Shown piece after piece: positions 8,336 through 27,856 of a stretch of DNA of 33,101 nt. The notes beneath the pieces are model-generated. The model searched no databases. It was not told the origin of the DNA and worked only from the letters and a program-made list of their open reading frames with translations. The position numbers and the translations under genes are program-made. Each line of letters starts with the position of its first letter. Positions within the stretch are counted from its first letter, which is position 1. The DNA is from Melioribacteraceae bacterium (lineage in GTDB: Bacteria; Bacteroidota; Ignavibacteria; Ignavibacteriales; Melioribacteraceae), in assembly GCA_021647785.1 (NCBI GenBank), contig JAKIUC010000052.1, positions 1 through 33,101 of the forward strand, in the 5' to 3' direction.

Positions 8336-10046
<1,711 letters not shown>

Positions 10047-10154: not shown

Positions 10155-11720
10155 TTATTCATCAGCAATATCATTTGAAATGTAATTATTGAAAAACATT
10201 TTATTGACAAAAATATCTTGAAAATTCTCATCAGAATCTAATGAGATATGTTCAATCTTTGATATACTATTTTCGAGTGAGTAGTCATCCGTAAAGAGAA
10301 GCATTTTTGCCCCGATTAATGCACTGTTACCAAGTTTAGTAATTTTACTTTGATCTACCTCAATCATTCCAAGTCGTGTTACATTACTTAAATTGATAAA
10401 ATTTCCAAATCCGCCAGCAATAAAGATGTGTGTAATGTCATCAAGAGATTTACAAAGTTTATCAACAAGAATTTGCAGCCCGGCAGCTAATGCTCCTTTT
10501 GCCAATTGGAATTCGCGCACATCCTTTTGTGTTAGAAAAACTCTATCACCAATTCTCAACTTTTCTTTTTCATCAACTATGGTTCCACCTGCATCAACTG
10601 AACCATTTTGTAAAAATACCGATACTGCATCTATCAATCCGCTTCCACAAATTCCAAGAGCATCCTGATTTCCTATAACGTGATAATCAATTCTTGTATC
10701 ATTATTGTTTACAGAAGAAATGGCTCCCGACATTGCCGACATACCCATGTGAATAGTTGCACCTTCAAAAGCAGGCCCAGCAGCGGTTGATGCACAAACC
10801 ATCCTATCGCTGCTACCAACTACTATCTCACCATTTGTTCCTAAATCTATTAGTGCAGTTAATTGAGTATGTTTATCCATACCCGAAGCAATTATGCCTG
10901 CATAAATATCACTGCCGATGAAACTACTAATTGGACGAACAAAAATTATCTTCACTTCGGAAGATAATTCCCAATCTAACTCAACCGGAGAATACTCTAT
11001 TGATTCATTATTAGTTGTTGCAAATGGGAACATTGAAAGGGGCTGAACATCTAAGCCACAAAAAAGATGGTGCATTACTGAATTGCCAACTAAAACAATT
11101 TTTTTAAGATTTATATCTTTACTATTTAACAATAATTTTATTAAAGAATAAGTTTCCTCTCTAATAAGTTTTTTTAGCTCATCACTCCCGGCAGTTGTTA
11201 GTCCGTGCAAAATTCTGGACATTATATCTGAGCCAAATCTACTTTGAGGATTACGTGATGTTTGAACACCCAACACTTGGCTTGATGATAAATCGACTAA
11301 TTGAGCAACAATTGTAGTTGTGCCAATATCAATTGCAATTCCGAAACCAACCAGCGGTGTAAAAGTAAATGCGGTATTATCTGCAAGTATTAATGATTCC
11401 AGTTGAGGTATTTCAATTGTAGTATCTTCAATCAATTCGCTATTACATGCTAATCTAAAATCTGAATCTAAACCAAGTTTGCAGTTTAACTCTTTGTACT
11501 GTTCATGATTTTTTACATCACCCGATAAAAGTTTCACCTTGCATCCACCACATAAACCTTTGCCACCACAAGGAAATTCAATACCATATTCAAATAACTT
11601 ATCTATAAGAGGTGTACCTTTAATTACATCAAGGTCTTTACCGATTGGTTCAATTCTTAATTTTATTTTTTCTTTATAATTCTTATTCAAAGTTATCATC
11701 AATTCTGTTTTTCTTTTCAT
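10155..11720 (-). CDS. Corrinoid-protein reductive activator, RACo type (2Fe-2S plus ASKHA domains)
   Basis: The 521-residue protein has an N-terminal ferredoxin-like domain with cysteines at 51, 57, 60 and 92 (FPCGGKGLCGGC and RLACN), the pattern for a plant-type 2Fe-2S cluster. The rest is the DUF4445/ASKHA ATPase-like domain, with FGIAIDIGTTTIVAQLVDL near residue 127, LIDLGTNGEIVVG and FIAGGFGNF. Proteins of this type use ATP to drive electron transfer to an inactive Co(II) corrinoid, restoring the Co(I) state needed for methyl transfer. Its first 38 bases overlap the end of the MetH-activation-like gene. A later ATG at 11699 would cut the overlap to 17 bases. Its place next to MtaB and MtaC homologues fits a role in re-activating that MtaC. 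Confidence 0.93.
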   Translation of the reverse strand: MKRKTELMITLNKNYKEKIKLRIEPIGKDLDVIKGTPLIDKLFEYGIEFPCGGKGLCGGCKVKLLSGDVKNHEQYKELNCKLGLDSDFRLACNSELIEDTTIEIPQLESLILADNTAFTFTPLVGFGIAIDIGTTTIVAQLVDLSSSQVLGVQTSRNPQSRFGSDIMSRILHGLTTAGSDELKKLIREETYSLIKLLLNSKDINLKKIVLVGNSVMHHLFCGLDVQPLSMFPFATTNNESIEYSPVELDWELSSEVKIIFVRPISSFIGSDIYAGIIASGMDKHTQLTALIDLGTNGEIVVGSSDRMVCASTAAGPAFEGATIHMGMSAMSGAISSVNNNDTRIDYHVIGNQDALGICGSGLIDAVSVFLQNGSVDAGGTIVDEKEKLRIGDRVFLTQKDVREFQLAKGALAAGLQILVDKLCKSLDDITHIFIAGGFGNFINLSNVTRLGMIEVDQSKITKLGNSALIGAKMLLFTDDYSLENSISKIEHISLDSDENFQDIFVNKMFFNNYISNDIADE

Positions 11721-12402
11721 TTATATTTTTATGGCAGTTGAAATCAACACACAGATTACAAGGGAGTTCTAACTTGGCAACATCTTTTCCGTAACCAATA
11801 ATTCCACTTAAAGATTTTTTTGGTTGCATCATTGAATAACTGGATAGCTTAATTCCGCAAAAATGTTTTGGCAAAAAAGTGAATAATTTCACTTGCTCTG
11901 AAATATCCCAGTTGCAATAACCTGGTGAATATATATTGCTAAATTCAAATTCTTTGCCAACAATATTTTCAATCTCTTTTTCCAGCCAGTCTGAAAATAT
12001 TTCCACATAAGCCGAACCTATTAAATCACCTGCATAAGTAGCGAACGGATCATTACCATAAAACTTTCCGACCCATTCCTCAAACTTGCATCCTAATGTT
12101 AGTGCAAAAACAACACTTCCTTCAATGTTTTTTAGTCTTGAAGCAATTTTACTGCCAGTATAAAATTCAACATCGGCAAGTTTAATACCATTTGTAATAG
12201 TTGAAACTTCACCAACTGGTAGAACCTTAAAGCCGCAAACAGGGTTAATCACATCTAAAGATTGGAAGTATAGATTTTGTACTAATTCATAATAACCCGA
12301 TGGGATATTGTTTTCAGAATATCCCATCGATAATAAAATATGGTCTAAATTTAATTTTAGTTTGTTTGAAGAAAGATTGTATTGAAATAGATTATTCAAC
12401 AT
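11683..12402 (-). CDS. Methionine-synthase activation-domain-like protein of a corrinoid system
   Basis: The 239-residue protein resembles the AdoMet-binding activation domain of cobalamin-dependent methionine synthase. It has the SPGYCNWDISEQVKLF motif near residue 159 (compare R-x-x-PGY in MetH) and SSYSMMQPKKSLSGIIGYG near 187. Stand-alone copies occur in bacterial corrinoid methyltransferase clusters, often next to RACo-type genes. The C-terminus has Cys215, Cys218 and Cys223 (PCNLCVDFNC), which may bind a metal or cluster; this is not part of MetH. It lies 17 bases after mtaB and overlaps the RACo gene, so the translation of the two is probably linked. It may bind the corrinoid protein during reactivation, or provide AdoMet-based reductive methylation. 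Confidence 0.82.
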   Translation of the reverse strand: MLNNLFQYNLSSNKLKLNLDHILLSMGYSENNIPSGYYELVQNLYFQSLDVINPVCGFKVLPVGEVSTITNGIKLADVEFYTGSKIASRLKNIEGSVVFALTLGCKFEEWVGKFYGNDPFATYAGDLIGSAYVEIFSDWLEKEIENIVGKEFEFSNIYSPGYCNWDISEQVKLFTFLPKHFCGIKLSSYSMMQPKKSLSGIIGYGKDVAKLELPCNLCVDFNCHKNINEKKNRIDDNFE

Positions 12403-12419
12403 TTAGAGTAAGGGCTGTT

Positions 12420-13790
12420 TTACAATCCATAAGCTTCAAGTTTAAAGACATCACCATACATCATCTGCAAATGTTCAACAGCTTCGCTTTCGGTTTCTCC
12501 GAAAGAACTTATAGCGGTTTCCATTTTTGTCATCCATTCTTTTTCTGTATCTGATATACTTAGAACATTATTATCTAAAGCTTTTTGTATTGCACTAAAT
12601 GCTATGGCAACAGCAGCTTTTGTTTGGGCGTAACCACCGGTGTTGGTTACTATTGATTTTGAAATATCAATTACAACTTCTGGGTCAAGCATCAATGCTT
12701 CAACAGAATGTGGCACATCACTTTTCACTAACATATCTCTCATCATTAATCCGTTACCACTATCAAGTGCAGTGTTGTAAAGTCTGCAATCATAGCTAAG
12801 CAATTCCATAAATGCTTCTGGCGCATTTCCACTTAAAAGCCGAACATTCTGTACCGATTCATTACTCCACAAATCTGCTGAAGCAGCTGCAATATTTCCA
12901 AGCGGGCTAAAATGTGCACAGCAAGCAGATTTACCTTCCATGCTTATCGGGTAACCAGTAATCGCTTTTATAATTGGACCCTCATAAGCACAATCTTTTG
13001 ATGGACCAACAGCGCCTTGTTCAAATGCTGCCAAACTTCTTGGGGCACTTGCTGCTCTATCTATTGCAGCGAGAACACTTGGAAGCATTCCCTGCCCAGC
13101 TAACTGCATTGCAGTATTGGCAAACCCGCAAGCACTATCTCCACCCGAAATTATTCCATACCTATTTGCTATTTCAGTAATTTGCTTCCACAACCAACTC
13201 ATATCCCTATGTGCTAATATTCCAAGACTTGCAACTATGCCGTACAAATCGCCATACATAAGTGCTTGGTCGTGAACTTCTTTACCGCCAACGGATTCTA
13301 TCGATAATATATCTGCACCAGCTTGTGCACAAAGTTCAAATCCTTTTAATGTTTTTTCGGTTGGCAAACCTGTTCGTAAAAGTGGAGGATGATCAGCATC
13401 CCGTAAATCTAAAACCGTTACTCGCAAAGCGTTTGGAATACCAGTTTCAATATGAAATTTATTTAATTCATTTTTAATTAGTTCGGTTATTTCCGCTCCC
13501 CATTCAGGTGTATCGGTCATTGGTGGTAATTGTTCAAACTCTACAACGAAACCAGGCACGTTTAACGCTTTTGCACGTGCTAAAATATTAGTCATCATTT
13601 CAGAATAATGTCTTCGTACCTCGCCCATTGTTTCTTGCGTTATCAACATAGTTGGCAATGTAAAATTTATTTCGGGATAAACTTTGCCATCACCAATGGT
13701 AAGTAGGTTGCCGCATTTTACAGGATGCGGACTTATTCCCATTAATAATTCTTCATGTTTGTCGATAGTTAATTTATCGAAAATTTTCAT
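12420..13790 (-). CDS. mtaB: Methanol:corrinoid methyltransferase family protein (MtaB-like)
   Basis: The 456-residue protein is the size of archaeal MtaB (about 460). The three zinc ligands known from Methanosarcina barkeri MtaB (Glu164, Cys220, Cys269) have counterparts at nearly the same positions: Glu165 (SIESVGGKE), Cys221 (SGGDSACGF) and Cys267 (SKDCAYEG). MtaB activates methanol on zinc and passes the methyl group to the Co(I) corrinoid of MtaC. A good ribosome binding site (GGAGC) precedes the ATG, and the mtaC-like gene is 35 bases upstream, as in known mtaCB pairs. What is odd is the setting: sugar transport and glycosidase genes on both sides. The substrate could be methanol from methyl-esterified glycans, or a methoxyl group on a sugar. 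The family assignment is strong; the substrate is open. Confidence 0.9.
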   Translation of the reverse strand: MKIFDKLTIDKHEELLMGISPHPVKCGNLLTIGDGKVYPEINFTLPTMLITQETMGEVRRHYSEMMTNILARAKALNVPGFVVEFEQLPPMTDTPEWGAEITELIKNELNKFHIETGIPNALRVTVLDLRDADHPPLLRTGLPTEKTLKGFELCAQAGADILSIESVGGKEVHDQALMYGDLYGIVASLGILAHRDMSWLWKQITEIANRYGIISGGDSACGFANTAMQLAGQGMLPSVLAAIDRAASAPRSLAAFEQGAVGPSKDCAYEGPIIKAITGYPISMEGKSACCAHFSPLGNIAAASADLWSNESVQNVRLLSGNAPEAFMELLSYDCRLYNTALDSGNGLMMRDMLVKSDVPHSVEALMLDPEVVIDISKSIVTNTGGYAQTKAAVAIAFSAIQKALDNNVLSISDTEKEWMTKMETAISSFGETESEAVEHLQMMYGDVFKLEAYGL

Positions 13791-13825
13791 CTTTGCTCCA
13801 AAGGGTATAATTACTCAATTTTTAA

Positions 13826-14491
13826 TTATACAACAGATGCCAAATGTTTAGCAAATTTATTAGGATCAGGGAAGTAGCCATCAGCACCAATTTTATCGCT
13901 AAATTCTTGCGAGATTGGTGCTCCGCCGATATATATTTTTGTATCCGGGGAAACCTCTTTGATTGCCGTTGTGGTTGTTTCCATCTGCATCATTGTTGTA
14001 GTTAGTAGGGCACTCATGCCAATAACTGCATTAGGATATTCTTTTAGAGTTTCAATAAATTGTTCTGGTTTAACATCGGTTCCTAAATCGATAACATTCC
14101 AGCCGTTTCCAGTTAACACCATACGAACAATATTTTTACCAATATCGTGCAAATCGCCTGCAACTGTTCCAAGTATAAAATCACCTTTCAACTCAACTTC
14201 GCCAGAGTCAAAAAATGGTTTTAAGTGTACCATTGCTACATTCATTGCCTTTGCTGCAATCAGCATATCTGGGATAAATGCTTTACCGCTTTCAAACTTA
14301 TCACCAACCGTTTTCATTCCAATCATCAGCCCATCATTTAAAATAGCAGCAGGTGCAACTGATTCTTCCAAAGCCTGTTTTGTTAGCTCGTCAGCTCCAA
14401 ATTCACCTTTCATATCTGGCGGGAATGGTGATTTTTGGTTTACTTTTCCTCGTGCTATTGCAACAGCCAATTTGTTTAATAATTCATTCAT
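13826..14491 (-). CDS. mtaC: Corrinoid-binding methyl carrier protein (MtaC-like)
   Basis: This 221-residue protein has an N-terminal four-helix bundle (about residues 1-95) and a C-terminal Rossmann-like B12 domain. The lower-axial cobalt ligand motif D-x-H-x-x-G is Asp113-Leu-His115-Asp-Ile-Gly118 (GDLHDIGKNIV). It is followed by the usual SALLTTTM (from Ser160) and GGAP (from Gly189) motifs that line the nucleotide tail. It carries a methyl group on cobalt between a substrate-specific methyltransferase and an acceptor-specific one. AAGGAA precedes the ATG. It is 35 bases before mtaB and 132 bases after the UroD-family gene. Confidence 0.93.
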   Translation of the reverse strand: MNELLNKLAVAIARGKVNQKSPFPPDMKGEFGADELTKQALEESVAPAAILNDGLMIGMKTVGDKFESGKAFIPDMLIAAKAMNVAMVHLKPFFDSGEVELKGDFILGTVAGDLHDIGKNIVRMVLTGNGWNVIDLGTDVKPEQFIETLKEYPNAVIGMSALLTTTMMQMETTTTAIKEVSPDTKIYIGGAPISQEFSDKIGADGYFPDPNKFAKHLASVV

Positions 14492-14623
14492 GAACAGTTC
14501 CTTTATAAAATAAACAAAAAAATGTATAACTTAATTGTAACAAATATTTGATGTTTTTTGTTCTGAAGTAGAAGTATAAATAATATTGCTGAACAGACGC
14601 AAGTTATTTGCAGTTTTTACATG

Positions 14624-15874
14624 TTAGTTAATACTTTTAACTGCATCAAAAAGAGCAACTACATTTTCGATGGGTGTGTTACCTTGAATGTTATGAACAG
14701 TATTAAAAATATATCCGCCATTTTTGTTAAATATCCTGCAATGCTTTAATACTTCTTCCCGAACATCTTTTGGGGTTTTAAATGCAAGTGTGTCTTGAGT
14801 ATCAACACCGCCACCCCAAAAAGTTAATTGCTCACCAAATTCTTCTTTTAATATTTTTGCATCCATATTGAACGCAGAAACTTGTACCGGATTAAGAATA
14901 TCGAATCCACTCTCTATTAGTGCCGGAACAAGAGACTTTACCGCACCGCAAGTATGCTTAAATGTTTTCCATTCTGTATTAGAATGAATCCAGCCATTTA
15001 TTTGTTTGTAGTATGGTTTGTACAATTCGTTATAAGTTTCTTCCGAACAAAATGTTGAATTTTGAGTTCCAAAATCAGTGCCGCAAATAAATACAGCATC
15101 TACATTATCTTTAACTGCATCTTTTATTTTAGCTAAATTTTCCAATGCAATTTCAGTTTGTTTTTCAAAAACTTTATGGATATAGTCTGGTCTAATCATT
15201 GTGGACATGTACCATTCTTCAATATCTCTTATCCCTTTCGGGTGTTTTATAAATGGAGCTGGAACTAATGCGATATCACCTAATGCAGTACCCGGAATTG
15301 ACAAAACAACGGCTCTATTTTTTGCAGATGCACGTTTAGTTTTCTTTGAAAAATAATCCAATTCTTCATCAGATATCAATCCATATTCCTCTAAATTATC
15401 TTCCGGATTTAATTTTTCTTCATCAATCGGTTCCTGACGAACAATGCAATCAAAAAAATATCCATTCTTTGGCATGCGTCCGCTCGGAGGTACGGCTGTA
15501 TCCCCTTCCGGATAAATAAGTGTATCACCTTTATCATCTTTTGTAGTATTAAAATGTTCTGATACAAGAACTTCTAACCCACTATCTAATTTCCACTCTT
15601 TCCAATTCTCATTAGGAAATCCGAATATTGTATTTAGAGGAAAAATCCCTTCTACATCAACTCCAAGTATTTCTTTTAAGTCATCATCTATATATCCAAG
15701 CATCTGATAAGGTTCATGTACTTTCACTAACCGTTTCTCTAATCCATAATATTCCCTAAGTGAAGCAACAATATTTACATGCATTCCAGTTACAGCAGTT
15801 GCTCCAAAATCTATTGCAATTTTATCAGGTTGTTTATGATTTAAACTTGATAATACTCTTTCTCTTGATGCCAT
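14624..15874 (-). CDS. UroD/MtaA superfamily protein, probable methyltransferase
   Basis: The 416-residue protein belongs to the uroporphyrinogen decarboxylase superfamily, which includes the MtaA/CmuA methyltransferases. It opens with MASRERVLSSLNHKQPDKIA and has the late barrel strands with His307-Thr-Cys309 (FKHTCGAV), followed by ILNPVQVSAFNMD and LTFWGGGVDTQ. MtaA-type enzymes use H-x-C plus a distant Cys as zinc ligands; here the matching late position seems to be His394 (FNTVHNIQGNTP). It is not a heme-pathway enzyme: it is longer than HemE and sits directly before mtaC and mtaB. It lies 58 bases after a Tat-type Gfo/Idh/MocA gene, an arrangement repeated at 23014-25468. It could demethylate a substrate onto MtaC or move the methyl group onward. 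AAGGAAAG marks the start. Confidence 0.82.
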   Translation of the reverse strand: MASRERVLSSLNHKQPDKIAIDFGATAVTGMHVNIVASLREYYGLEKRLVKVHEPYQMLGYIDDDLKEILGVDVEGIFPLNTIFGFPNENWKEWKLDSGLEVLVSEHFNTTKDDKGDTLIYPEGDTAVPPSGRMPKNGYFFDCIVRQEPIDEEKLNPEDNLEEYGLISDEELDYFSKKTKRASAKNRAVVLSIPGTALGDIALVPAPFIKHPKGIRDIEEWYMSTMIRPDYIHKVFEKQTEIALENLAKIKDAVKDNVDAVFICGTDFGTQNSTFCSEETYNELYKPYYKQINGWIHSNTEWKTFKHTCGAVKSLVPALIESGFDILNPVQVSAFNMDAKILKEEFGEQLTFWGGGVDTQDTLAFKTPKDVREEVLKHCRIFNKNGGYIFNTVHNIQGNTPIENVVALFDAVKSIN

Positions 15875-15932
15875 TTATTCTTTCCTTATTAATCCGTTTC
15901 CATGATCTAAATATTTTTAAATTTAACCAATG

Positions 15933-17321
15933 TTAAATATCTAAGGTCTTTCCAATAGTTCTACTCTCCTCAGCTTTAAAACCAATTTCATGACTCGCAA
16001 CAGATACACTAATAGGCGTAACTATAAGAGTCTCATCTTGTTGATAAACCGCTTGCAGAAAATCTTGCATTAAACCTAAATCACTTCCTCCATGCCCACC
16101 CTTTAGTCTTGGAATTTTCTTTACATCAATCACTGTTTTTTTATCGTTTTTAAATTCAGCAATTCCAATAAAAGCTGGTCTGTAGTTATAAAGATCACCT
16201 AATGTTCCTTGTATTTTAAAAAACCGCCCACCATTTTCGGCTATCCCAAGGGTAAATGAAGATGTAACTTTATCTTCAAATTCCATATTAACTACTTGAT
16301 GATCTATTACATCGTTATCGCAACGCCAAACACATCGTCCGAAATCACCGGTTTCAAATGCATGTAGTAATGATTCTTGCGTAAAATTGGGAATATCAAG
16401 ATGCTGCATAAAATCGTAATCTTGCTCAGCAAATTTACCCTGATACATTTTGAATGCGGAATAAGGGCATTCTTTTTCTATGGTGCAATTCGTACATCTC
16501 TCGCCGCTGTTTGCCGGTGCGTTCTCTTCTCTAAAATAAGTTAACGACCCAAAAGATGAGACTCGTTTAGATTTTTTACCCAACCACCAATAGATAATAT
16601 CAAGATCATGACAAGATTTTGAAAGCAGCATCGGATTCGATTCCTTACTATTTCTCCACCTGCCTCGCACATAAGAATGCTGGTAGTGCATACGCCCAAT
16701 AAGTTCGGAATGTTGAATATTTGTAATTTCACCCAATACCCCAGAATCAATTATTTCCTTTACTTTTTTATACATTCGATGGTATCTTAAAACATGGCAT
16801 ACAGCTACAATACAATTCTTCTCTGCAGCAAGATTGGCAATATCTTCTACTTCTTTAATATTTTGAGCAACTGGTTTCTCCAATAAAATATCATAACCTA
16901 AGTTTATTGCAGCCATTGTTGGTTCGTAATGCATGTTATCCATAGTGGTAATTATCATTATATCTGCAAATTTGGCTTTCTGCATTGCATGTTCCCAAGT
17001 GGTCCAAACATTCTCTTTGGGAATATTATATTTTTTGACAAATCGTTCTCTCTTGAAATCAATTGGTTCAGCAATACCAATTATTTTTAATTCTTTAGGA
17101 AACAAATCACAATACATTGCATAGGCAGTACCTCTATTGCCACCGCCAATAATTACAGCAGTTAAAGGTTTTTTAATTTCTACGTGGCGAGGGTCTTTAG
17201 GAATTCCAGTTTCTGTTTGCTGGCTATCAAACAATGTTAAACCTTTGTTAATAAATGGTGTTCCTAAAGCAACTAGCCCACCCAATTTTAGTGCGTTACG
17301 TCTTGATATTCTGTTTTTCAA
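15933..17321 (-). CDS. Gfo/Idh/MocA family oxidoreductase with Tat-type signal, copy 1
   Basis: The start is probably the TTG at 17321, with AAGGAGAG just upstream, although the frame is open to a TTG at 17357. This gives 462 residues, the same length as copy 2 at 24080, which begins with ATG at the equivalent place. The N-terminus has a twin-arginine signal (SRRNALKLGG). A Rossmann NAD(P) site follows (IGGGNRGTAY near residue 58), then the EKP motif near 148 and CHDLDI near 237. A cysteine group (CTNCTIEKECPYSA and RCVWRC) is typical of one subfamily. Family members oxidise or reduce sugars, or act as NAD-dependent glycosidases such as GH109. The Tat signal suggests the periplasm. It lies between the LamG-DUF1961-like gene and the UroD-family gene. 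Confidence 0.9.
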   Translation of the reverse strand: MKNRISRRNALKLGGLVALGTPFINKGLTLFDSQQTETGIPKDPRHVEIKKPLTAVIIGGGNRGTAYAMYCDLFPKELKIIGIAEPIDFKRERFVKKYNIPKENVWTTWEHAMQKAKFADIMIITTMDNMHYEPTMAAINLGYDILLEKPVAQNIKEVEDIANLAAEKNCIVAVCHVLRYHRMYKKVKEIIDSGVLGEITNIQHSELIGRMHYQHSYVRGRWRNSKESNPMLLSKSCHDLDIIYWWLGKKSKRVSSFGSLTYFREENAPANSGERCTNCTIEKECPYSAFKMYQGKFAEQDYDFMQHLDIPNFTQESLLHAFETGDFGRCVWRCDNDVIDHQVVNMEFEDKVTSSFTLGIAENGGRFFKIQGTLGDLYNYRPAFIGIAEFKNDKKTVIDVKKIPRLKGGHGGSDLGLMQDFLQAVYQQDETLIVTPISVSVASHEIGFKAEESRTIGKTLDI

Positions 17322-17404
17322 TTTTCTCTCCTTAAAATAATTTAACTTAATTTTCAAATAAAATTTTTGTAAAATATTTTTTTATAAAAAACCCACTTTA
17401 TAGA

Positions 17405-17424
17405 CTTATGCACGGTGGAGCATA
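17405..17424. repeat. Small hairpin between the LamG-DUF1961-like gene and Gfo/Idh copy 1
   Basis: TTATGC-ACGGTGGA-GCATAA is a 6-bp stem with an 8-base loop, ending one base before the LamG-DUF1961-like stop codon. It shares the piece TGCAC-GGT-GGAG with the stem-loop at 19055-19075 when that is read on the other strand, so both may be remnants of one dispersed palindromic repeat. Confidence 0.25.
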
Positions 17425-17425
17425 A

Positions 17426-18991
17426 TTATTTCTTGATATTTCTTTCATACACAATAAAATTTCGATAACGCACTGTTGTATTATACATGTGTCGGAAACC
17501 AATACGACCAAAATCCAATACAGGACCATTGTTAATATCAAATTTGTCTTCCACATCAAATACGGTCTTTCCATCAATTGAACCGTGTAAACGATTTCCT
17601 ATTAGTACAAATCGTAATTTATGCCACTTACCCACTTCTATTCGGTCAGCGGCTCCGTAATGCATCATCTTTCCCCATGGATTTTTGGCAAAGAACTGTG
17701 TTTCCACATTTTTTCGTAAATCGGGATATTTGCGCATCAACTCCCAATGATAATTTCTGTTCTGCCCAATTAGAAAACCCATCTTGCCCGATTTCGATAT
17801 TTGGTTGTCGTCAATAAAATCATTACGCTGCGGACCACTGGATGCAACAAGAAGCAGCATAAGTCCATCATCTTCTTCCGGCATAAATTCAAATTCAATC
17901 CATTGGTCTCCTTCAAAAGTTACGGGGCTCCACAAATACATACGTGTTTCATGATCCGAAAAATCGGGCGTATCAATCAACAAACCTTCATCGGTAATTT
18001 TCACTACATGCAAATCTTTATATTTATCCCCTGTCTGAAAAACCCAGCCATCCAAATCGTCTTTTTCAAGAAAGCTGCATTCATAAGATTTTTGCCATGT
18101 ATCATCCAGTTTAATATCTAACGAGGGTCTATCAACAACAGTAAACTTATCTCTCAATATTTCATCTGCCGGATCATTGGTTACCGGACGGCTCTCAGAA
18201 TATATTTTACCGGCTTCCTCCTTAGAAATAACACCTCCTTCAATTTGCAAATTACGCATTACAAACATGGGGTTGCCAATGTAAAGTCTGTCGCCCCAGT
18301 CAGTGAAGAACTCAGTTTTTTCAATATGTGCTACGTGAAAGCCATTAACATACATATTTATTTCTTTTTTCTTTTTATCCCAAGTGATAACAACATGATA
18401 CCACATCCCTTTAAGAATCGTCATATCTTCTGCCCACAAAGATAATGGAGATGTAGTATTTCCATACGAAACTTTACTAGCTATATTTTCGTTAGTTGGT
18501 TCTGTATTATAATTGAAAAGTAAAGGCTTGTAACCTGTTTCCCAAAATAGACCAAAGCCCTTTTTTTCTCCGTTGCGTGCTGGGAAAAAATTTGAGAAAA
18601 AAGGATAGACAAAAGCATTTTCTACTCTATTGAAAACCCAATCTTTTGTTTTCCAATTTGCCAAGTCTTCCAAGGGGGAAAACCATAAGGAAATTGTTCC
18701 TTTGTTACTATGATGAGCTTCCGTTTCGATAAACGCTTTGGTCTGCATACTTGTTGGTCGAAAACCTTTAAGTCCTGAAATAGTAGGAAAACGATGGGGA
18801 CCGTCTATAGTGAAATTAGTCGTATCGGTTAGAGCTGCAGAATATTGTTTGTTCCCACCAAATAAATCCGATGAATTAGCAGCCCCAGACAAAACGACTA
18901 AAGCAATGATAATGTTAATCACGGTTTTTTGAAATAGGCGTTGCAGAATTGAAGTTCCAGATTCCTGAGATTCTCTCTTTATTTTTACCAT
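17426..18991 (-). CDS. Exported LamG-like plus DUF1961-like protein
   Basis: The 521-residue protein has a membrane-spanning signal (about residues 23-40; VINIIIALVVLSGAA). A LamG/concanavalin-type beta-sandwich follows (about 85-270; KGTISLWFSPLEDL, WYHVVITWDKKKKEINMYVN and RLYIGNP). The second half (about 300-518) resembles DUF1961, the family of B. subtilis YesU from the rhamnogalacturonan operon, ending YNTTVRYRNFIVYER. Both parts are jelly-roll folds that bind or cleave polysaccharide. No catalytic residues can be assigned. A relation to 3-keto-glycoside hydrolases is another reading, attractive because Gfo/Idh oxidoreductases flank it. AAGGAA precedes the ATG. It follows a 361-base gap, so it may have its own promoter. 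Confidence 0.75.
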   Translation of the reverse strand: MVKIKRESQESGTSILQRLFQKTVINIIIALVVLSGAANSSDLFGGNKQYSAALTDTTNFTIDGPHRFPTISGLKGFRPTSMQTKAFIETEAHHSNKGTISLWFSPLEDLANWKTKDWVFNRVENAFVYPFFSNFFPARNGEKKGFGLFWETGYKPLLFNYNTEPTNENIASKVSYGNTTSPLSLWAEDMTILKGMWYHVVITWDKKKKEINMYVNGFHVAHIEKTEFFTDWGDRLYIGNPMFVMRNLQIEGGVISKEEAGKIYSESRPVTNDPADEILRDKFTVVDRPSLDIKLDDTWQKSYECSFLEKDDLDGWVFQTGDKYKDLHVVKITDEGLLIDTPDFSDHETRMYLWSPVTFEGDQWIEFEFMPEEDDGLMLLLVASSGPQRNDFIDDNQISKSGKMGFLIGQNRNYHWELMRKYPDLRKNVETQFFAKNPWGKMMHYGAADRIEVGKWHKLRFVLIGNRLHGSIDGKTVFDVEDKFDINNGPVLDFGRIGFRHMYNTTVRYRNFIVYERNIKK

Positions 18992-19078
18992 TTTTTTATT
19001 TCCTTTATTTAAAATCGTATTTTAAAAGATATGTTAATTTAACTCAAAAAAAGCATAGCACTCCTACGGTGCAAATTC

Positions 19079-19199
19079 CAAAACACAATTCTTAAAAAAC
19101 AAATAAATTCCAAATTACAATACTTAAATTCAAAACTTATTGTTTGTTATTTTGTATTTGAGTATTGAGATTTATTTGTTGTTTGGTCATTGTTTTTGG
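19079..19199. repeat. Long imperfect AT-rich inverted repeat
   Basis: The arms (about 58 bases each) face each other across a 5-base centre. Their best-matched core is AACAAATAAAT against ATTTATTTGTT, and the outer ends are CCAAAA and TTTTGG. The match is patchy elsewhere. The sequence style, rich in AAATTCC and CAAAT, is that of widespread low-complexity intergenic repeats. Its function is unknown. Confidence 0.4.
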
Positions 19200-19226
19200 T
19201 ATTTTATTTCTTTACAAAAAAAACAA

Positions 19227-19275
19227 CCTGTCCCGCCATGTTCCGTTCTTTTTGCGGAATCTTTTTTCGGGAAGG
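19227..19275. repeat. Nested hairpin
   Basis: CCTGTCCCG pairs with CGGGAAGG (one mismatch) around an inner TTCCG/CGGAA stem. It lies about 80 bases downstream of the GPH transporter stop codon on the minus strand. There is no clean T-run after it on that strand, so a terminator role is doubtful. Confidence 0.3.
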
Positions 19276-19352
19276 ATTTAGTTGTTAATACTATAACACG
19301 CTCTGTGCAGCAATTTTTTCACCGTCAACAACTCGGTTCATGTAAAAAAACA

Positions 19353-20762
19353 TCAAACTTTCCCCCGTCTTTCTTCAAGAATATGTCTTGTCTCTAATGC
19401 TCTCTCTGGTGAAATAGGATAAAATTTAAGAACTATTAAAGCAATTAGAGCTGTTACAACTACACCACCGGCAAGTATTGCACGCATTCCGAATATAGCT
19501 TCCGGTGTTTGTGCTCCTCCAAGTTGTTCATCAAACCCAACATAGTTAAGTGCGAGTCCAGCTCCGAGAAATGCGATAGAAAATCCAAACTTTTGAAACC
19601 AAGTATAGAGTGCTCCAAACATACCTTCGCGTCTATTGTGGTGTCTTCGTTCATCTTCATCACACACATCAGCCATCATTGCCGGCATTATCATTGCAAT
19701 TCCTATCCAAATTGGTGCTCCAAGTATTGGGTCTAACAAAATTTTAATTGGGTTATCCGGTGTAAAGACAAACCATTTAACAACTCCACTCATAAGAAAC
19801 ATAACATAAACAATTGCTAAAGCTGTCTTCTTACTAAACCGTGATGAAATAAAGGTTAGTACTGGTATTGAAATAAAACCCATTACCGCGTAGGCTAATG
19901 TAAGATGTCCTTTCCAAATTGCACCTGTGGCAATATCACCATCAAACATGTGATAGACTATTAAATAATAATCCAAACTTGATGCGTAAATTCCACAAAC
20001 TGTTTGTAAAATTGTTAATGTAATTAAAATCACGAAAGCATTATTTTTAAATGCTTCCTTTATGCTTACCCAAATTTTAACTTTATTTTGAGATGATGCC
20101 GCTTTATAATATCGTTCCTTTACTAACAAGCCGGGTAAAGAACCGCCAATAATAAATATGAAGATTCCGACTCCCCAACCCACGTATTGTACACCAACCA
20201 TTGCAGCTCCAAAAACTGCCAACTGTGCGAGCGGAAAAAGGTATTGATTAACTGCTTCACCTATTTTAAAAAAGAAGGAAAAAAACCCCATTACTTTTGT
20301 TCGCTCGTTATAGTCGGGAGTCATCTCGTAGGTGAGACTTGTTAAAGGGACTGAAAAAATAGTGAAGCAAGTGTAGAAAAGAATAGAGGTAACAACAAAC
20401 CACGCTAATATTGCGTCCTCGCTCCAGCCTGTGGGAACCATCCAAACTATACCAAACATTATACCTGTTAGAATAGCACCTCCAACTATATATGGTCTGC
20501 GCCTGCCATATTTGGAATGGGTGTTATCAGATATTTTTCCCATGAGCGGATCTGTAAAAGCATCCCAAAATCTAGGTATTGCCATAGCGATACCGAGAAG
20601 TGCAGGATTAACGCCTAAGGTCATCTGAAAAACTGGCCAAGCAAAATTATTGAAAAAGAAATTTCCGAAAAACAATGCCAGTCCGCCAAAGCCAATAGCC
20701 ATTTTAGATTTGAGAGGTACTCGATCTTCCGGTGCAATAATAGGTTTTGAGTCTTTGTTCAT
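19353..20762 (-). CDS. GPH family sugar:cation symporter (MelB-like MFS)
   Basis: The 469-residue protein has the twelve-helix pattern and motifs of glycoside-pentoside-hexuronide symporters. The cation-site motif D-x-x-x-D is Asp67 and Asp71 (RFWDAFTDPLMGKISDNTHS), followed by KYGRRRPYI. The cytoplasmic loop region has YEMTPDYNERTKV. It would take up an oligosaccharide, glycoside or uronide with Na+ or H+ across the inner membrane. This is the second permease of the locus, next to enzymes for chain breakdown, while the sugar porter at 6878 sits with the monosaccharide enzymes. It is 76 bases after the zinc-ribbon gene. The substrate is not predictable. Confidence 0.92.
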   Translation of the reverse strand: MNKDSKPIIAPEDRVPLKSKMAIGFGGLALFFGNFFFNNFAWPVFQMTLGVNPALLGIAMAIPRFWDAFTDPLMGKISDNTHSKYGRRRPYIVGGAILTGIMFGIVWMVPTGWSEDAILAWFVVTSILFYTCFTIFSVPLTSLTYEMTPDYNERTKVMGFFSFFFKIGEAVNQYLFPLAQLAVFGAAMVGVQYVGWGVGIFIFIIGGSLPGLLVKERYYKAASSQNKVKIWVSIKEAFKNNAFVILITLTILQTVCGIYASSLDYYLIVYHMFDGDIATGAIWKGHLTLAYAVMGFISIPVLTFISSRFSKKTALAIVYVMFLMSGVVKWFVFTPDNPIKILLDPILGAPIWIGIAMIMPAMMADVCDEDERRHHNRREGMFGALYTWFQKFGFSIAFLGAGLALNYVGFDEQLGGAQTPEAIFGMRAILAGGVVVTALIALIVLKFYPISPERALETRHILEERRGKV

Positions 20763-20838
20763 GCAGTCTCAGCTAATAATATTTTTTTTAGTTTGTTTAA
20801 TGTGTCTCTCTATTGATAAATACTAAAACCCTGATTAA

Positions 20839-21078
20839 CTACTTCCCATCAAAATCATCTTTCAAAATATCTTCAACTGTAAATCGTTTAAGCATTGCTT
20901 TATATTTTTGTTTATAGATAGAATATAAATGAAGAATTTCCTGTTCCTCTCCTTCCCAATTACACCGTCTGCAATAGAACTGTTCTACCTCTTTTTCAAA
21001 AAGTAAGTCGTAATCAATTTCGCGTAAAAGACATATTGGGCATCTATAATTTATTTTGCCTGTTCTACCTTGAGACAT
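20839..21078 (-). CDS. Small zinc-ribbon protein
   Basis: This 79-residue protein has two Cys pairs, CPIC at residues 13-16 and CRRC at 36-39, spaced as in zinc ribbons, followed by a charged helical tail. It overlaps the preceding gene by 28 bases, and a strong ribosome binding site (GAGGAG) lies inside that gene's end, so the start is convincing. I do not recognise the family. The overlap suggests it serves the NodB-like protein, perhaps as a metal-binding partner, but it could as well be an unrelated small regulator. Confidence 0.7.
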   Translation of the reverse strand: MSQGRTGKINYRCPICLLREIDYDLLFEKEVEQFYCRRCNWEGEEQEILHLYSIYKQKYKAMLKRFTVEDILKDDFDGK

Positions 21079-22886
21079 GTATTTAACTCCTCGTTCAATT
21101 TTACTGTTTTATAAATTCCAATTTTTAAATTTGGTGCAAATGAATATCCTTCTTCAAAATATCCGGTACATTCAGCTTGTGTGGTTTGCAAACTTGCCTT
21201 GGTTTGAACATGAGGAATAATTGCAGTTGCAGCCTTTACATTTTGAATTGATTCTTCACGGCAGCGGTAATCGTAACTTACTTCTTTGCTCGTCCCGGAA
21301 TTATCTTCAATAGAAAGCAAACAACCTGTGAGATCTTCAGGATATTCTGTAGTACCCCAACACGATGTTAGAAATTCATCAATTTCAACTTCAGCATTTG
21401 TGTCTGATGATTCAATAAGTTTACGTCTTATTTCAATTACGCCTGCATTTTCTATGAAGCGATATGTAGTTGCAATTTTAATAGTTAAACCTTTGAACTC
21501 TATTTCAACAGGTAAAACATCTAAGATTCTCACTCCATCTTCTTCACGATATTTACCTTGAGTACGGCAGGAGCTTAAATCGACCTCTTCCCCTTTGTAT
21601 CTAACCTTACAGCTTTTAATTGCTCCTTCACCGGCGTAATGTGTAAAGGCTCCGGCTCTGTAACGCGATTGAACAATGTACGGGTAAGATGCGTCCTGAT
21701 TAGCCTTAGTACCAGCACCACAAGGTCGTTCTAATTTGGAAGCATAGGGACGGAGGTCAGTAATAGCACCGCCCTGTTTAAGATCAACCGTTACGCGGAA
21801 TTTAGAATCGGCATACCAGAAGGCTTGATTTTTTGTACCGTAAACTATGTCTTTCCAAAGTCCGCAAATTGGTCCGCTACGTGGCTGATTTTTTCTGAAC
21901 CAATCTGCAAAGTCAGACATAGTCATGTCAACTAATTTATTCTCTTTTTTTAGTTTGCCATAGTAACCCAGAAAATCTTCATAACTTTTTTTGAGTATTC
22001 GGTAATCTGCTTCCCATCTTCCATTCTTGCCCATCCAACCGGGGCCCACGTAAGCAAGGTTGTAAGTAAAACCTTTATTAAATTTTTTCATTACCTGATA
22101 TTGATCTATCAAGTTATACATGTATGGCAGACGATCACCTTCATAAATCAATCCGCGTATAATGTTTTGCGGATGCGTTCCAAACATATCGCCGGAGTTA
22201 TCCATTATTGCCAGAAGGTCGCGCGATAGATGCGGTATTGCTACAATGCCAATATCGTCCTCTTCAGATTCAGCAATGGCATGTGTATTATGTTTTGACG
22301 GAACCCAAGCTGTCCACGGACTTCCATCCATTAACGTGTACCAAGAATAATTTGCATGTCTAAAAACTTTAGGACCTTCCTCGAAGCAAGTGGCAATAGC
22401 TGTTTTAACCATTGGGTATTTTTCTTTAATGAAGTTGATTAATTCTGCGTCCATAAAATAAGATCCGGTGGAAGTTGGATAGAATCCAAAGACTTCTTTA
22501 AACCGCTCAAAAGAATCTACGACAATTTTTTTCTTCATATCCATTGGAAAGAGCCACATTGCTAACTCCTTAGAGTTATATTTTTCACGGAACTCTTTGC
22601 AGTTAACACCAAGAAAAGTATGCCCAATTTCATCGCCATATTTTTCGTGATGTTCCTTTACCAAAGCAATCACTTCATCATTATACAAACTTGCGTATGT
22701 CATTTGAATTGTAGTTTTAAGATTATTGCGGTGAGCTATTTCTTGCTGCAGCTTAAAAATATCAATAGATTCGCCAACAACTTCTTTTTTACTTACCTCT
22801 TCCGATTTACCCTCTTGTGCGTCTGTATCTATATACTCAGGCACCAATTCCGGACGGTGCACTAGATTTAAAACAAATGTGTCCAT
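21051..22886 (-). CDS. Uncharacterised NodB/GH57-like barrel protein with C-terminal beta-sandwich
   Basis: The 611-residue protein has no signal peptide and is probably cytoplasmic. The first 350 residues look like a seven-stranded barrel of the polysaccharide deacetylase/GH57/GH38 type. They contain VIALVKEHHEKYGDEIGHTF, then FGFYPTSTGSYFMDAELINF and KYPMVKTAIATCFEEG, then FGTHPQNIIRGLIYEGDRLP. The rest (about 360-611) is beta-rich, with FRVTVDLKQGGAITDLRPY, and resembles the sugar-binding sandwich that follows such barrels. I cannot name the family or assign catalytic residues. It could be a glycosidase or deacetylase acting on imported oligosaccharides. It lies 127 bases after the MtaA-like gene and overlaps the zinc-ribbon gene. 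Confidence 0.6.
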   Translation of the reverse strand: MDTFVLNLVHRPELVPEYIDTDAQEGKSEEVSKKEVVGESIDIFKLQQEIAHRNNLKTTIQMTYASLYNDEVIALVKEHHEKYGDEIGHTFLGVNCKEFREKYNSKELAMWLFPMDMKKKIVVDSFERFKEVFGFYPTSTGSYFMDAELINFIKEKYPMVKTAIATCFEEGPKVFRHANYSWYTLMDGSPWTAWVPSKHNTHAIAESEEDDIGIVAIPHLSRDLLAIMDNSGDMFGTHPQNIIRGLIYEGDRLPYMYNLIDQYQVMKKFNKGFTYNLAYVGPGWMGKNGRWEADYRILKKSYEDFLGYYGKLKKENKLVDMTMSDFADWFRKNQPRSGPICGLWKDIVYGTKNQAFWYADSKFRVTVDLKQGGAITDLRPYASKLERPCGAGTKANQDASYPYIVQSRYRAGAFTHYAGEGAIKSCKVRYKGEEVDLSSCRTQGKYREEDGVRILDVLPVEIEFKGLTIKIATTYRFIENAGVIEIRRKLIESSDTNAEVEIDEFLTSCWGTTEYPEDLTGCLLSIEDNSGTSKEVSYDYRCREESIQNVKAATAIIPHVQTKASLQTTQAECTGYFEEGYSFAPNLKIGIYKTVKLNEELNTCLKVEQAK

Positions 22887-22951
22887 TAAAAATTTTTCCT
22901 TTTATTTTTTAGTTTACCCAATTGTTGGATAATAGGAGTCTCACAGACTGT

Positions 22952-22988
22952 CAAGTTTCATCCCGCTTGCGGGATTAACAAAAACTTG
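22952..22988. repeat. Two-part hairpin downstream of the MtaA-like gene
   Basis: An inner ATCCCGC-TT-GCGGGAT stem is enclosed by CAAGTTT/AAACTTG arms, so the whole forms a stem of 14 pairs with one small asymmetric loop. It lies 26 bases past the MtaA-like stop codon. It may attenuate transcription into the next gene, but no T-run follows it on either strand. A REP-type repeat is equally possible. A second short palindrome, AGTCT-CAC-AGACT, lies just beside it (22937-22949). Confidence 0.45.
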
Positions 22989-23013
22989 TGTAATATTATT
23001 GTTCTACGTTTAC

Positions 23014-24039
23014 TTATTTATAAAATTCTCTCGCTGTTTTTATCATCACTTTAATGTTCTCCGAAGGAGTAATAGCCGGTAATGCACAACCCGAATTCAA
23101 AACAAAACGATTTGATCCGGAATAAATTTCAAGTAATTCTATTGTTTTCTGCCTTACTAATTCCGGTGTACCCAAAGCTAAAACCCCACTTGGATCAATA
23201 TTACCAAATAGAGTAACTTTGTCGTGATATATTTCATAAATTTTCTTCACATCAGCTTTGTAATCCAGTTCAATCATATCAGCTCCTGTTTTCAACATAG
23301 AAGAAAGAATAGATTCTGTATCACCGCAGATGTGTAGTCCGTAAGGGAGTCCAAATTCATGAGCAGTATCAGCCATCTTCTTTTCATACGGAAGAGCAAA
23401 TTTTTCATACATCTCAGGGGAAATCATTTCGGGACCAGCGGGGCTATCACCATTAGAAACCATATCAACACCAGTTTGAGCCATCAATTTTATAAACTGA
23501 CTACTTGTATCAGCTGCGTATTCAAGTAATTCGAAAATTTGATTCTCTTCTGCCATCATTAAATCAAGCATCCAATTTTGAGCGTTCCGCATCATGCTTG
23601 CAAGTGAAAAGGGTGCCTGATCACAATTGCCGCGTACATAAATCTCATCTTTAAAATACTCTTTTAATAATCTTACAGCTTCGAGCCAGATTTGAATATA
23701 CTTGTAATCCTCAACTTTTACTAATTTCAGATTTTTTACATCATCCATACTTTGAATAGAGCCCTTATTTGACCGAGCTGGTTCATCAACCGGAAAATCT
23801 ATTGGTACGGTTACAGCACCGGCTAAAGTTACTGTATCAATATCAATAAGTACCCCATCAAACTTGTATCTCTCCACAGAATCAATAAAACAATTGGCAA
23901 TAATTTTAGGATCGTTTCTATATTGTTCCATTGTAACACCAAACTCTTTAGCAGCCATCATAAAATTATGCAGCATAATAGGTGTTTTGTCCGGCTTCTC
24001 GCCATTTAATGCTGCCTTTATTCTTTCATATCCATTCAT
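23014..24039 (-). CDS. MtaA/MtbA-class cobamide methyltransferase (UroD superfamily)
   Basis: The ATG at 24039 (341 residues) is preferred to the TTG one codon earlier. Length and motifs fit methylcobamide methyltransferases of the MtaA kind. The zinc triad H-x-C...C is His236, Cys238 (GLHICGDTESIL) and Cys318 (LNSGCALP), close to the positions in archaeal MtaA. Other family motifs are LFGNIDPSGVLALGTPE and the start NGYERIKAALNGEKPDKTPI. Such enzymes move a methyl group from MtaC to a thiol or other acceptor: coenzyme M in methanogens, probably tetrahydrofolate in a bacterium. It follows Gfo/Idh copy 2 by 40 bases and lies 7 kb from mtaC-mtaB, so the system appears split into two blocks. Confidence 0.85.
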   Translation of the reverse strand: MNGYERIKAALNGEKPDKTPIMLHNFMMAAKEFGVTMEQYRNDPKIIANCFIDSVERYKFDGVLIDIDTVTLAGAVTVPIDFPVDEPARSNKGSIQSMDDVKNLKLVKVEDYKYIQIWLEAVRLLKEYFKDEIYVRGNCDQAPFSLASMMRNAQNWMLDLMMAEENQIFELLEYAADTSSQFIKLMAQTGVDMVSNGDSPAGPEMISPEMYEKFALPYEKKMADTAHEFGLPYGLHICGDTESILSSMLKTGADMIELDYKADVKKIYEIYHDKVTLFGNIDPSGVLALGTPELVRQKTIELLEIYSGSNRFVLNSGCALPAITPSENIKVMIKTAREFYK

Positions 24040-24079
24040 CAATATTCCATTGGGTTATTCGTTTTTGATAAAGAATTAA

Positions 24080-25468
24080 TTAAACATCCATTGTTTTTCC
24101 TGTATCTCTACTCTCTTCAGCTTTAAAACCAATTTTATGACTCTCCACAGATTCACTAATAGTTGAAGCGAGAAGGGAATCGTCATGCTGATAAACCGCC
24201 TGCAAAAAATCCTGCATTATACCAAAATCTCCACCACCATGACCCCCTTTGTGTCTTGGAAGTTTTTTTACATCAATCACTGTTTTTTTGTCGCCCTTAA
24301 ATTCTGCAACACTAATAAAGGCAGGTTTGTAATTGTAAAGGTCTCCTAATGTTCCTTGAATTCGGAAAAACCTGCCATAATTTTCTGAAACGCCTAATGT
24401 AAATGAGGAAGTAACTTCATCTTCATATTCCATGTTAACTACTTGGTGATCAATTACATCATTATCACAACGCCAAACGCATCGTCCAAAATTACCTTTT
24501 TTGAGTGCGTTTAATATTGTCTGCTTTTCGTAATCGGGTATATCCAAATGCTGCATAAAATCATAATCTCTATCGAGATAAATTCCCAGATAAAGTTTTA
24601 TTGCCGAGTATGGACAATCTTTTTCAATAGCACAATCTGTACATCTTTTTCCACTATTTTTTGGGGCATTGGCTTCCTTAAAAAAAGTTAGTGACCCGAA
24701 AGATGAAACTCGTTCGCATTTTTTATCTAACCAGTAATAGAGAATATCAAGATCATGACAAGACTTTGATAGCAGCATTGGAGTAGTTTCGTCAGCTTTT
24801 CTCCATCTGCCTCTTACATAAGAATGCTGCATATGAGTACGCGGAATAAGTTCGGAATGCTGAATATTCGTAATATCACCCATCACACCGGAATCAATTA
24901 TTCTTTTTACTTCTTTATACATTCTATTGTATCTTAAAACATGGCATACACCAACAATGCATTTCTTTTCCGCTGCAAGATTTGCTATGTCCTGCACTTG
25001 TTTAATATTCTGAGCAATTGGTTTTTCCAGAAGAATATCATAACCTAAATTTATTGCCGCCATTGCTGGTTCGTAGTGCATGTTATCCATTGTTGTAATT
25101 ATCATTATGTCTGCAAATTTTGCTTTCTGCATTGCATGTTTCCAAGTGGTATATATATTTCCCTTTGGAATATTATATTTTTCAGCAAACCGTTCTCTTT
25201 TGAAACCTATAGGTTCAGCAACGCCAACTATTTTCAATTGTTCAGGATATTCCTTACTGTACAATGGATAGGCATTTCCTCTATTTCCAGCACCAATAAC
25301 TATTGCGGTTAAAGGTTTTTTAATTTTTACATGGCGGGGATCTGTTGGAATTCCAACCTCTGTTTGAGGATTATCAAACAATGTTAAACCTTTGCTTATA
25401 AAAGGTGTGCCTATTGCAACAATGCCGCCTAATTTTAGTGCGTTGCGTCTTGATATTGTGTTCTTCAT
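24080..25468 (-). CDS. Gfo/Idh/MocA family oxidoreductase with Tat-type signal, copy 2
   Basis: The 462-residue protein is a close paralogue of copy 1, with long identical stretches such as ADIMIITTMDNMHYEP and CDNDVIDHQVVNMEYED. The twin-arginine signal SRRNALKLGG lies at residues 6-15. The NAD(P) site is GAGNRG (59-64), EKP is at 148-150 and CHDLDI starts at 237. Five cysteines (276, 279, 285, 330, 334) form a possible metal site shared by both copies. AAGGAG precedes the ATG. Upstream is the alpha-L-fucosidase and downstream the MtaA-like gene. Periplasmic oxidation of a sugar, or NAD-dependent glycoside cleavage, is the likely role; the substrate is unknown. Confidence 0.92.
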   Translation of the reverse strand: MKNTISRRNALKLGGIVAIGTPFISKGLTLFDNPQTEVGIPTDPRHVKIKKPLTAIVIGAGNRGNAYPLYSKEYPEQLKIVGVAEPIGFKRERFAEKYNIPKGNIYTTWKHAMQKAKFADIMIITTMDNMHYEPAMAAINLGYDILLEKPIAQNIKQVQDIANLAAEKKCIVGVCHVLRYNRMYKEVKRIIDSGVMGDITNIQHSELIPRTHMQHSYVRGRWRKADETTPMLLSKSCHDLDILYYWLDKKCERVSSFGSLTFFKEANAPKNSGKRCTDCAIEKDCPYSAIKLYLGIYLDRDYDFMQHLDIPDYEKQTILNALKKGNFGRCVWRCDNDVIDHQVVNMEYEDEVTSSFTLGVSENYGRFFRIQGTLGDLYNYKPAFISVAEFKGDKKTVIDVKKLPRHKGGHGGGDFGIMQDFLQAVYQHDDSLLASTISESVESHKIGFKAEESRDTGKTMDV

Positions 25469-27416: not shown

Positions 27417-27856
27417 ATAACTTTCTCCATATATAGTGTTTGGTCGGTTATTCATAATACAATAGAAACAAAAGACTTACCGCTATTAGAAGGAATGAAT
27501 GTTCTATATTGTTCTATTGCTCCATTGCTAAATTGTTGATAATAACTTGTAATAACAATAGAACAATGAAACAATAGAACAATTTTGTCTATTATTCGTT
27601 ATATGAAAATAGTATAAATCCTTTGAATTAAATATGTTACACCTGTACCGCAAAGCGTGTAAGTATGCAACCTAACACTATATAGTTTTCATATTTATTC
27701 GTATTCCGTGCTAGAGTCGTGTCAAGTATTAAACCACGTAAATATCAAAGATCTTTGCACAGCATCCATTCTGGAAATCTTAATCCTACTCTTAATTCTT
27801 AATCTATTTTTTACTTTTCAACCTTCACTTTACGGTTTACCGCACTACAAAAATTC
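27417..27856. other. Gene-free gap with inverted repeats
   Basis: Between the fucosidase and the TIM-barrel glycosidase there is no gene. The gap contains an imperfect inverted repeat built of TTGTTCTATTG-type units (27509-27537 against 27554-27582). It also contains a segment with ATATGAAAA/TTTTCATAT ends around TTACAC/GTGTAA (about 27600-27695). The GC-rich motif inside that segment recurs at 5120-5138. The rest is AT-rich and plain. Confidence 0.5.
27509..27582. repeat. Imperfect inverted repeat of TTGTTCTATTG units
   Basis: The two 29-base arms match at about 24 positions and are separated by 16 bases. Within each arm the unit TTGTTCTATTG is partly repeated, so this may be a slippage-grown hairpin or a decayed miniature element. 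Confidence 0.45.

Follow-up and report, generated by a model that had tools for sequence, protein, structure and literature searches.

The window analyzed here is the entire 33,101-base contig JAKIUC010000052.1 (C3) from a Melioribacteraceae bacterium with a genome of 4.25 Mb in 99 contigs (completeness 99.16, contamination 3.51), and it encodes a corrinoid methyl-transfer module, with an MtaB-like zinc methyltransferase as its probable first enzyme, among genes for the use of sugars. Fifteen genes form a same-strand run on the minus strand, from position 27455 to position 6878, with spacing that ranges from an overlap to 361 bases (Table 1); three further upstream genes join the run if gaps of 500 bases are allowed. 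Within the run, the corrinoid core is flanked on both sides by sugar genes, and the location of a corrinoid module inside a sugar locus is thereby confirmed. Every gene named in a preliminary description of this DNA was present on the minus strand, but the interval given there, 10155-25468, covers only part of the run, with the fucosidase, the epimerase, the isomerase and one of the two permeases, the sugar porter, located outside of it.

Table 1. Genes of the minus-strand run, listed from upstream to downstream, with the matches that support their assignment.
Feature	Position	Strand	Matches
GH29 alpha-L-fucosidase-family protein, first gene of the run	25551-27455	-	PF01120 (E 2.5e-86)
Gfo/Idh/MocA oxidoreductase, N-terminal SRR motif (Tat-like signal, by eye)	24080-25468	-	PF01408 (E 5.3e-17)
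UroD family, MtaA/CmuA class	23014-24042	-	PF01208 (E 4.4e-67); TIGR01463 (170.8 bits, cut-off 235.4)
611-aa protein, no family assigned	21051-22886	-	no Pfam/NCBIfam match
GPH-type sugar:cation symporter	19353-20762	-	PF13347 (E 6.8e-64)
LamG-like + DUF1961 / 3-keto-disaccharide-hydrolase-like protein	17426-18991	-	PF09224 (E 1.2e-15), PF13385, PF06439
Gfo/Idh/MocA oxidoreductase, second copy	15933-17357	-	PF01408 (E 4.6e-17)
Divergent UroD-family protein, 416 aa	14624-15874	-	PF01208 (E 3.3e-19)
Corrinoid protein, DxHxxG present	13826-14491	-	PF02310, PF02607
MtaB-like zinc methyltransferase, probable substrate methyltransferase	12420-13790	-	PF12176 (E 1.5e-149); PDB 2i2x (E 7.6e-86)
MetH-activation-domain-like protein (weak)	11683-12402	-	PF02965, Met_synt_B12 (22.9 bits, cut-off 25)
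RACo-type ATP-dependent corrinoid reductive activator	10155-11720	-	PF14574 (E 1.5e-63), PF17651 (E 2.2e-42), Fer2
Aldose 1-epimerase (GalM family)	8895-10046	-	PF01263 (E 1.2e-93)
D-lyxose/D-mannose isomerase, cupin type	8336-8881	-	PDB 7nzo (E 6.1e-68)
MFS sugar porter	6878-8230	-	TIGR00879 (372.1 bits, cut-off 237.8)

The MtaB-like protein scored 499 bits against PF12176, for which the cut-off is 25, and it is thus a member of this fold family. The DxHxxG motif of the corrinoid protein was conserved in all 23 members of its cluster, the window copy included. Among the NCBIfam models, MtgC_2 (170 bits) and the pyl-type corrinoid model (166 bits) outscored MtaC (108-109 bits), all three below cut-off, and the label MtaC in the preliminary description was therefore loose, although the corrinoid protein itself is present. 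Likewise, of the two corrinoid reactivation proteins claimed there, the RACo-type protein is solid, whereas the second has only the weak match to Met_synt_B12; relatives of the latter were identified on the MtaB contig in three other loci. The UroD protein of the MtaA/CmuA class could be aligned to PDB 4ay7 (E 2.7e-20) with the HxC and C residues matched; it is probably the second methyltransferase, on the methyl acceptor side. The divergent UroD protein had no PDB sequence match at 0.001, and its nearest homolog among the fetched relatives was a UroD protein from a rhamnose locus in genome G112 (E 1.7e-29); it is a candidate for either the substrate methyltransferase or the second methyltransferase. 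Judged by family, a substrate methyltransferase, a corrinoid protein, an activating enzyme and a second methyltransferase are encoded together, the last of these roles being one that we infer.

Among the sugar genes of the run, the two Gfo/Idh/MocA oxidoreductases are paralogs (E about 1e-257). The best PDB sequence match of the 611-aa protein had an E-value of 0.2, and its fold model was useless (pLDDT 33).

MtaB was found to be rare, with a single copy in the genome of the window and with hits in 6 of 164 genomes from the order, in 34 of 391 genomes of a class sample (some of these hits being fragments) and in 5 of 395 genomes of a phylum sample, all five from the same class. The zinc ligands of MtaB, namely Glu, Cys and Cys, correspond to positions E165, C221 and C267, and these were invariant in all 35 MtaB sequences. 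The window protein is 38% identical to 2i2x, the methanol enzyme of Methanosarcina barkeri; the MtaB of genome G004 is 45% identical to 2i2x and the other 34 MtaBs 34-41%. Seventeen alignment columns, one of which is located beside a zinc cysteine, mostly split 2i2x and G004 from the rest, with only two methanol-type sequences on one side of the comparison. In a tree of 34 of the 35 rows, from which the short protein L067 was left out, the window protein paired with that of G040 (support 100/100), and G004 was separate, with a very long branch whose placement the program flagged as unsure, in a dataset that included no bacterial methanol MtaBs. Taken together, these comparisons suggest that 34 MtaB loci of one class form a group that is distinct from the single methanol-like copy in G004.

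G004, which is congeneric with the window genome, carries a methanol-like set of MtaB, corrinoid protein and RACo (locus L007). The neighbors of its MtaB gene include RACo, a relative of iron-containing alcohol dehydrogenases and a PAS-domain protein. A tblastn search in plasmids with one neighbor each of the G561 and G004 MtaB genes gave no match.

The main competing explanation for the module is that MtaB scavenges methanol from the methyl esters of polysaccharides such as pectin or methyl-glucuronate, with a linkage to sugar genes that reflects co-regulation. The MtaB of established function, 2i2x, does use methanol, but the window MtaB scored 394.7 bits against the NCBIfam equivalog model for methanol MtaB, below the cut-off of 720, and the methanol-like copy in G004 is located by the alcohol-dehydrogenase relative and not by annotated sugar genes. 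Also, no carbohydrate esterase was identified among the 20 window proteins scanned against Pfam, 3 of which had no Pfam match at all. We consider methanol capture to be rather unlikely.

To study the gene surroundings in relatives, open reading frames were called and clustered around 34 further MtaB genes and representatives were annotated, so that each label of a neighbor is based on a single annotated member of its cluster, or on a few of them. Fragmentary MtaB hits (G637, G693) and second hits (G733, G561) were left out, the stretches L105-L111 were outside the analysis, and the labels GH38-like and AraB/AraD-like, which had been given by the look of the sequences, were excluded from the counts. 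A carbohydrate gene was present in at least one same-strand MtaB run in 15 of the 20 genera that make up the non-methanol group, the window genus included, or in 13 if two weak genera are set aside (g91 with only a DeoC/LacD-family aldolase and g303 with no more than a 111-aa fragment from the GH10 cluster). The possibility, raised in the preliminary description, that the MtaB cluster would be unlinked to sugar genes in relatives was thus not borne out; the recurrent sugar linkage of this MtaB group is well supported, and it therefore lends support to a methyl capture that is tied to the use of glycans. Since MtaB is rare in the order and the linkage recurs in relatives, we take the association to go beyond chance.

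The linked genes vary by locus and include those for rhamnose, GH10, pectin, CE15, GH97 and GH29. The G112 contig carries RhaT, RhaM, a class II aldolase and RhaA on the MtaB strand, of which only RhaM and RhaT are in the strict run, along with a module of MtaB, the corrinoid protein, two UroD proteins and a MetH-activation-like protein. In G040, a rhamnulokinase (TIGR02627, 541.6 bits versus a cut-off of 527.95) is encoded in one open frame with RACo, followed by the corrinoid protein, MtaB, the MetH-activation-like protein, a homocysteine S-methyltransferase and SSF. This frame of 1006 aa (L006, 13263-16283) is either a true fusion or has lost a stop in the assembly. GH10-like genes and a xylulokinase were identified in G671, members of the GH10 cluster in G135 and G755, a member of the xylulokinase cluster in G135, GH97 in G720, and GH2 together with a relative of the window GH29 protein (phmmer 6e-45) in G703. 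In families f4, f5 and f10, ROK and PfkB kinases, an aldolase, a glycerate kinase, a GHMP kinase and a nucleotidyltransferase are located in varying combinations around UroD, the corrinoid protein and MtaB. The locus in G547 is pectin-like (GH28, GH88, oligogalacturonate lyase and KduI), and G737 has a CE15 glucuronoyl esterase beside MtaB, as well as GH3 and a member of the GH9 cluster. These two loci are compatible with methanol and with methyl ethers alike, but in the rhamnose loci there was no ester source among the annotated neighbors.

Fourteen loci share a conserved protein of roughly 777 aa (cluster c2; e.g., L061 10909-13242), which in most of them directly follows MtaB; its tested members matched no Pfam, NCBIfam or PDB sequence, nor did a PDB profile search give a match. 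For a neighbor of 747 aa, the PDB profile search gave only a heparinase III-like match at an E-value of 0.006. A membrane-type protein of 182 aa that overlaps the start of MtaB in G112 (L045 10029-10577) could by its look be an ECF-type substrate component, which we assume may be for cobamide.

The patchy distribution of MtaB in the order fits horizontal transfer, and the module could then be a general source of methyl groups that is placed in sugar loci with no functional tie to them. We find this improbable, however, because sugar genes are located at both ends of the same-strand run, the linkage recurs with different sugars across the 15 genera, and the kinase and RACo of G040 share one open frame. 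In another scenario, the UroD proteins would be the true substrate methyltransferases, comparable to MtvB, VdmB and OdmB, and the methyl groups would come from lignin or from phenolic methoxyls on xylan or pectin. This is supported by the presence of a UroD-family gene in 25 of the 35 loci, given that the characterized O-demethylases belong to the UroD superfamily (passages in PMC13222342), and the CE15 protein in G737 hints at lignin-carbohydrate esters. However, no feruloyl esterase or aromatic gene was matched among the 20 scanned window proteins, the rhamnose operons have no obvious aromatic source, and since the loci were collected via MtaB, the recurrence of UroD in sugar loci is seen only alongside MtaB. 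Overall, we give the demethylation of methoxylated aromatics only a slim chance.

The reading that we favor, and hold to be moderately likely, is that imported methyl sugars undergo an anaerobic O-demethylation that depends on a corrinoid, with the sugar differing by locus. Methylated sugars are constituents of glycans from plants, algae and bacteria. GH29 and other glycosidases would free O-methyl sugars or glycosides, to be imported via the GPH symporter or the sugar porter. Once the sugar is in the cytoplasm, the oxygen of its methyl ether would be activated at the zinc site of the MtaB-like protein, and the Co(I) form of the corrinoid protein would accept the methyl group and leave the free sugar, which may then be processed by the epimerase, the isomerase and the oxidoreductases. 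As a leaving group, a sugar alkoxide is at least as good as the hydroxide that is released when MtaB acts on methanol. Oxidized corrinoid would be re-reduced by RACo, and perhaps also by the MetH-activation-like protein, while a UroD-family protein would transfer the methyl group further, the likeliest route being to homocysteine or to methyl-tetrahydrofolate for MetH, with methionine as the product. In G112 and G040, O-methyl-rhamnose is the sugar that fits best.

The simplest joint reading is that the methyl group probably ends up in homocysteine and hence in methionine. A full-length MetH of 1226 aa is encoded in the window genome, FolD was found in all 9 genomes, FTHFS in none of the 8 MtaB genomes searched, and MTHFR was not detected in the window genome, which is 99% complete. 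In 3 of the 35 loci, a homocysteine S-methyltransferase is encoded no more than two genes away from MtaB or the corrinoid protein, and in another 3, all from one genus (L051, L052, L062), a core MetE protein is encoded two genes after MtaB. The one core MetE that was checked by sequence (L051, 5818-6840) has 340 aa and no folate domain, and proteins of this type are candidates for a folate-independent methionine synthase that is fed by MtaB and the corrinoid protein. A strict either/or of UroD and homocysteine S-methyltransferase was not upheld, as both were present in two loci. We favor homocysteine as the sink because some relatives carry homocysteine methyltransferases nearby and because the window genome has MetH, with MTHFR and FTHFS undetected; for the latter two results, methionine is also a likelier sink than C1 oxidation. 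The glycan-linked capture of methyl groups that the preliminary description proposed is thus supported, but a feed of these into C1 oxidation is not, and oxidative C1 metabolism was rejected as the default sink.

A number of observations weigh against the demethylation of methyl sugars. MTHFR was found in 53 of the 58 genomes searched (47 of the 51 good ones), and since it is present in 6 of the 8 MtaB genomes searched and missing from 3 of the 50 other good relatives, its absence here is no more than a hint. Only 6 of the 35 loci had a homocysteine methyltransferase of either kind. According to passages in PMC12282258, GH29 enzymes act on fucose and not on methyl-fucose; no other fucosidase family was matched among the 20 scanned window proteins, and searches of the window genome gave no FucI and no RhaA. 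On these grounds 2-O-methyl-fucose, named in the preliminary description as an example, is a weak candidate and was rejected as the specific substrate.

As regards the linkage, the run lacked an annotated sugar gene in 5 of the 20 genera, with some of the contigs cut off or the neighbors unannotated. In g2, sugar genes that include AraA are on the contig yet outside the run; in g69 and g73, large neighbors are unannotated, one of them without a match in plasmids; in g97, the G382 MtaB is alone beside an acyl-CoA-dehydrogenase relative; and in g271 the contig is short. Among these genera, G146 has its sugar genes and MtaB in separate runs. Furthermore, linkage within the run was seen in only 1 of 3 loci in g70 and 1 of 2 in g210, and the surroundings of the G004 MtaB, with neighbors that are partially annotated, contained none of the annotated sugar clusters.

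Because the Bacteroidetes are rich in sugar genes, we compared the proteins encoded up to 5 kb from MtaB in 19 loci (96 proteins) with those of 19 other stretches from the same 19 genomes (101 proteins). The Pfam tally covered 19 of the 35 MtaB loci, namely G004 and a single locus from each of 18 of the 20 genera; L087 was dropped as the second of its genus and the very short stretch L100 contained no protein. Near MtaB, the best 25 of 113 families included UroD (11), SSF (4), RACo (4), and FGGY, PfkB, glycerate kinase, S-methyltransferase, GH2 and GH9 (2 each). In the control, the best 25 of 165 families included no sugar-kinase family with at least two proteins, but glucosamine-6-phosphate isomerase, Gfo/Idh and MFS (2 each) and GH94 and GH18 (1 each) were represented. 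Since only the best 25 families were considered on each side, the contrast is qualitative and not a test of significance.

The module resembles the MtaABC system (2i2x) in the MtaB fold family, the three zinc ligands, the corrinoid partner and the MtaA-class UroD protein. It differs in that MtaB scores below the methanol equivalog cut-off, the corrinoid protein is nearer to the MtgC models, the neighborhood is one of sugar genes, and the host is no methanogen or acetogen. The four-component layout and the presence of UroD proteins are shared with CdmB and with the corrinoid O-demethylases of the UroD type (MtvB, VdmB, OdmB, MtoB). However, the substrates of these enzymes are methoxylated aromatics or haloalkanes, as stated in parts of PMC13222342, whereas an MtaB-like protein and a carbohydrate context are found here. 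As a machine, the module resembles the four-component O-demethylases, with a probable first enzyme that is MtaB-like rather than UroD-like.

Like the P450 route for 6-O-methyl-D-galactose in marine Flavobacteriia, the module would demethylate a methyl sugar within a polysaccharide locus, but that route uses a monooxygenase that yields formaldehyde (sections of PMC10033563), whereas the reaction suggested here would be oxygen-free and give a protein-bound methyl group. The core methionine synthases MesA-C, with a predicted methyl transfer from a corrinoid protein to homocysteine, are comparable to the core MetE proteins after MtaB in the three loci. The predicted main donors are however MtrA or the corrinoid protein of the Wood-Ljungdahl pathway, while other corrinoid proteins have been proposed as donors to some paralogs, and the term MtaB is absent from the main text (PMC7857596). 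Among the matches listed in the open-license PMC literature, there was no description of a corrinoid-dependent demethylation of sugars, and the sugar-demethylation route met there is the P450 monooxygenase.

If true, a corrinoid route would explain how anaerobes handle methyl sugars, extend the chemistry of MtaB from methanol to alkyl ethers and link the breakdown of glycans to the supply of methionine. Also, PF12176, which serves as a marker for methanol methyltransferases in metagenomes (parts of PMC6302309), may then partly count sugar degraders. Going one step further, we tentatively suggest, as a possibility at somewhat less than even odds, that anaerobic Bacteroidetes have a distinct family of MtaB-like demethylases, dependent on zinc and a corrinoid, for O-methyl sugars across operons for rhamnose, xylose/xylan, uronate/pectin and fucose, which would cleave alkyl methyl ethers and transfer the methyl group to homocysteine, and which in the window genome would replace MTHFR as the source of the methionine methyl group.

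In the window and 17 loci, the Rfam models gave two tRNAs only and no riboswitch at gathering scores, and the counts from promoter and terminator scans were no different from shuffle level. As regards the SusC/SusD pair of polysaccharide utilization loci, no SusD match was obtained among the 20 scanned window proteins, 3 of them without any Pfam match. A TonB receptor with a carboxypeptidase-regulatory domain is encoded at 1779-4856, with a score of 78.7 on TIGR04056 versus a cut-off of 368.25, in a window that ends with the contig. Upstream of the run, on the same strand, the segment 27857-33099 encodes a T9SS-sorted protein and a beta-helix protein, as well as a second open end with a T9SS-like tail.

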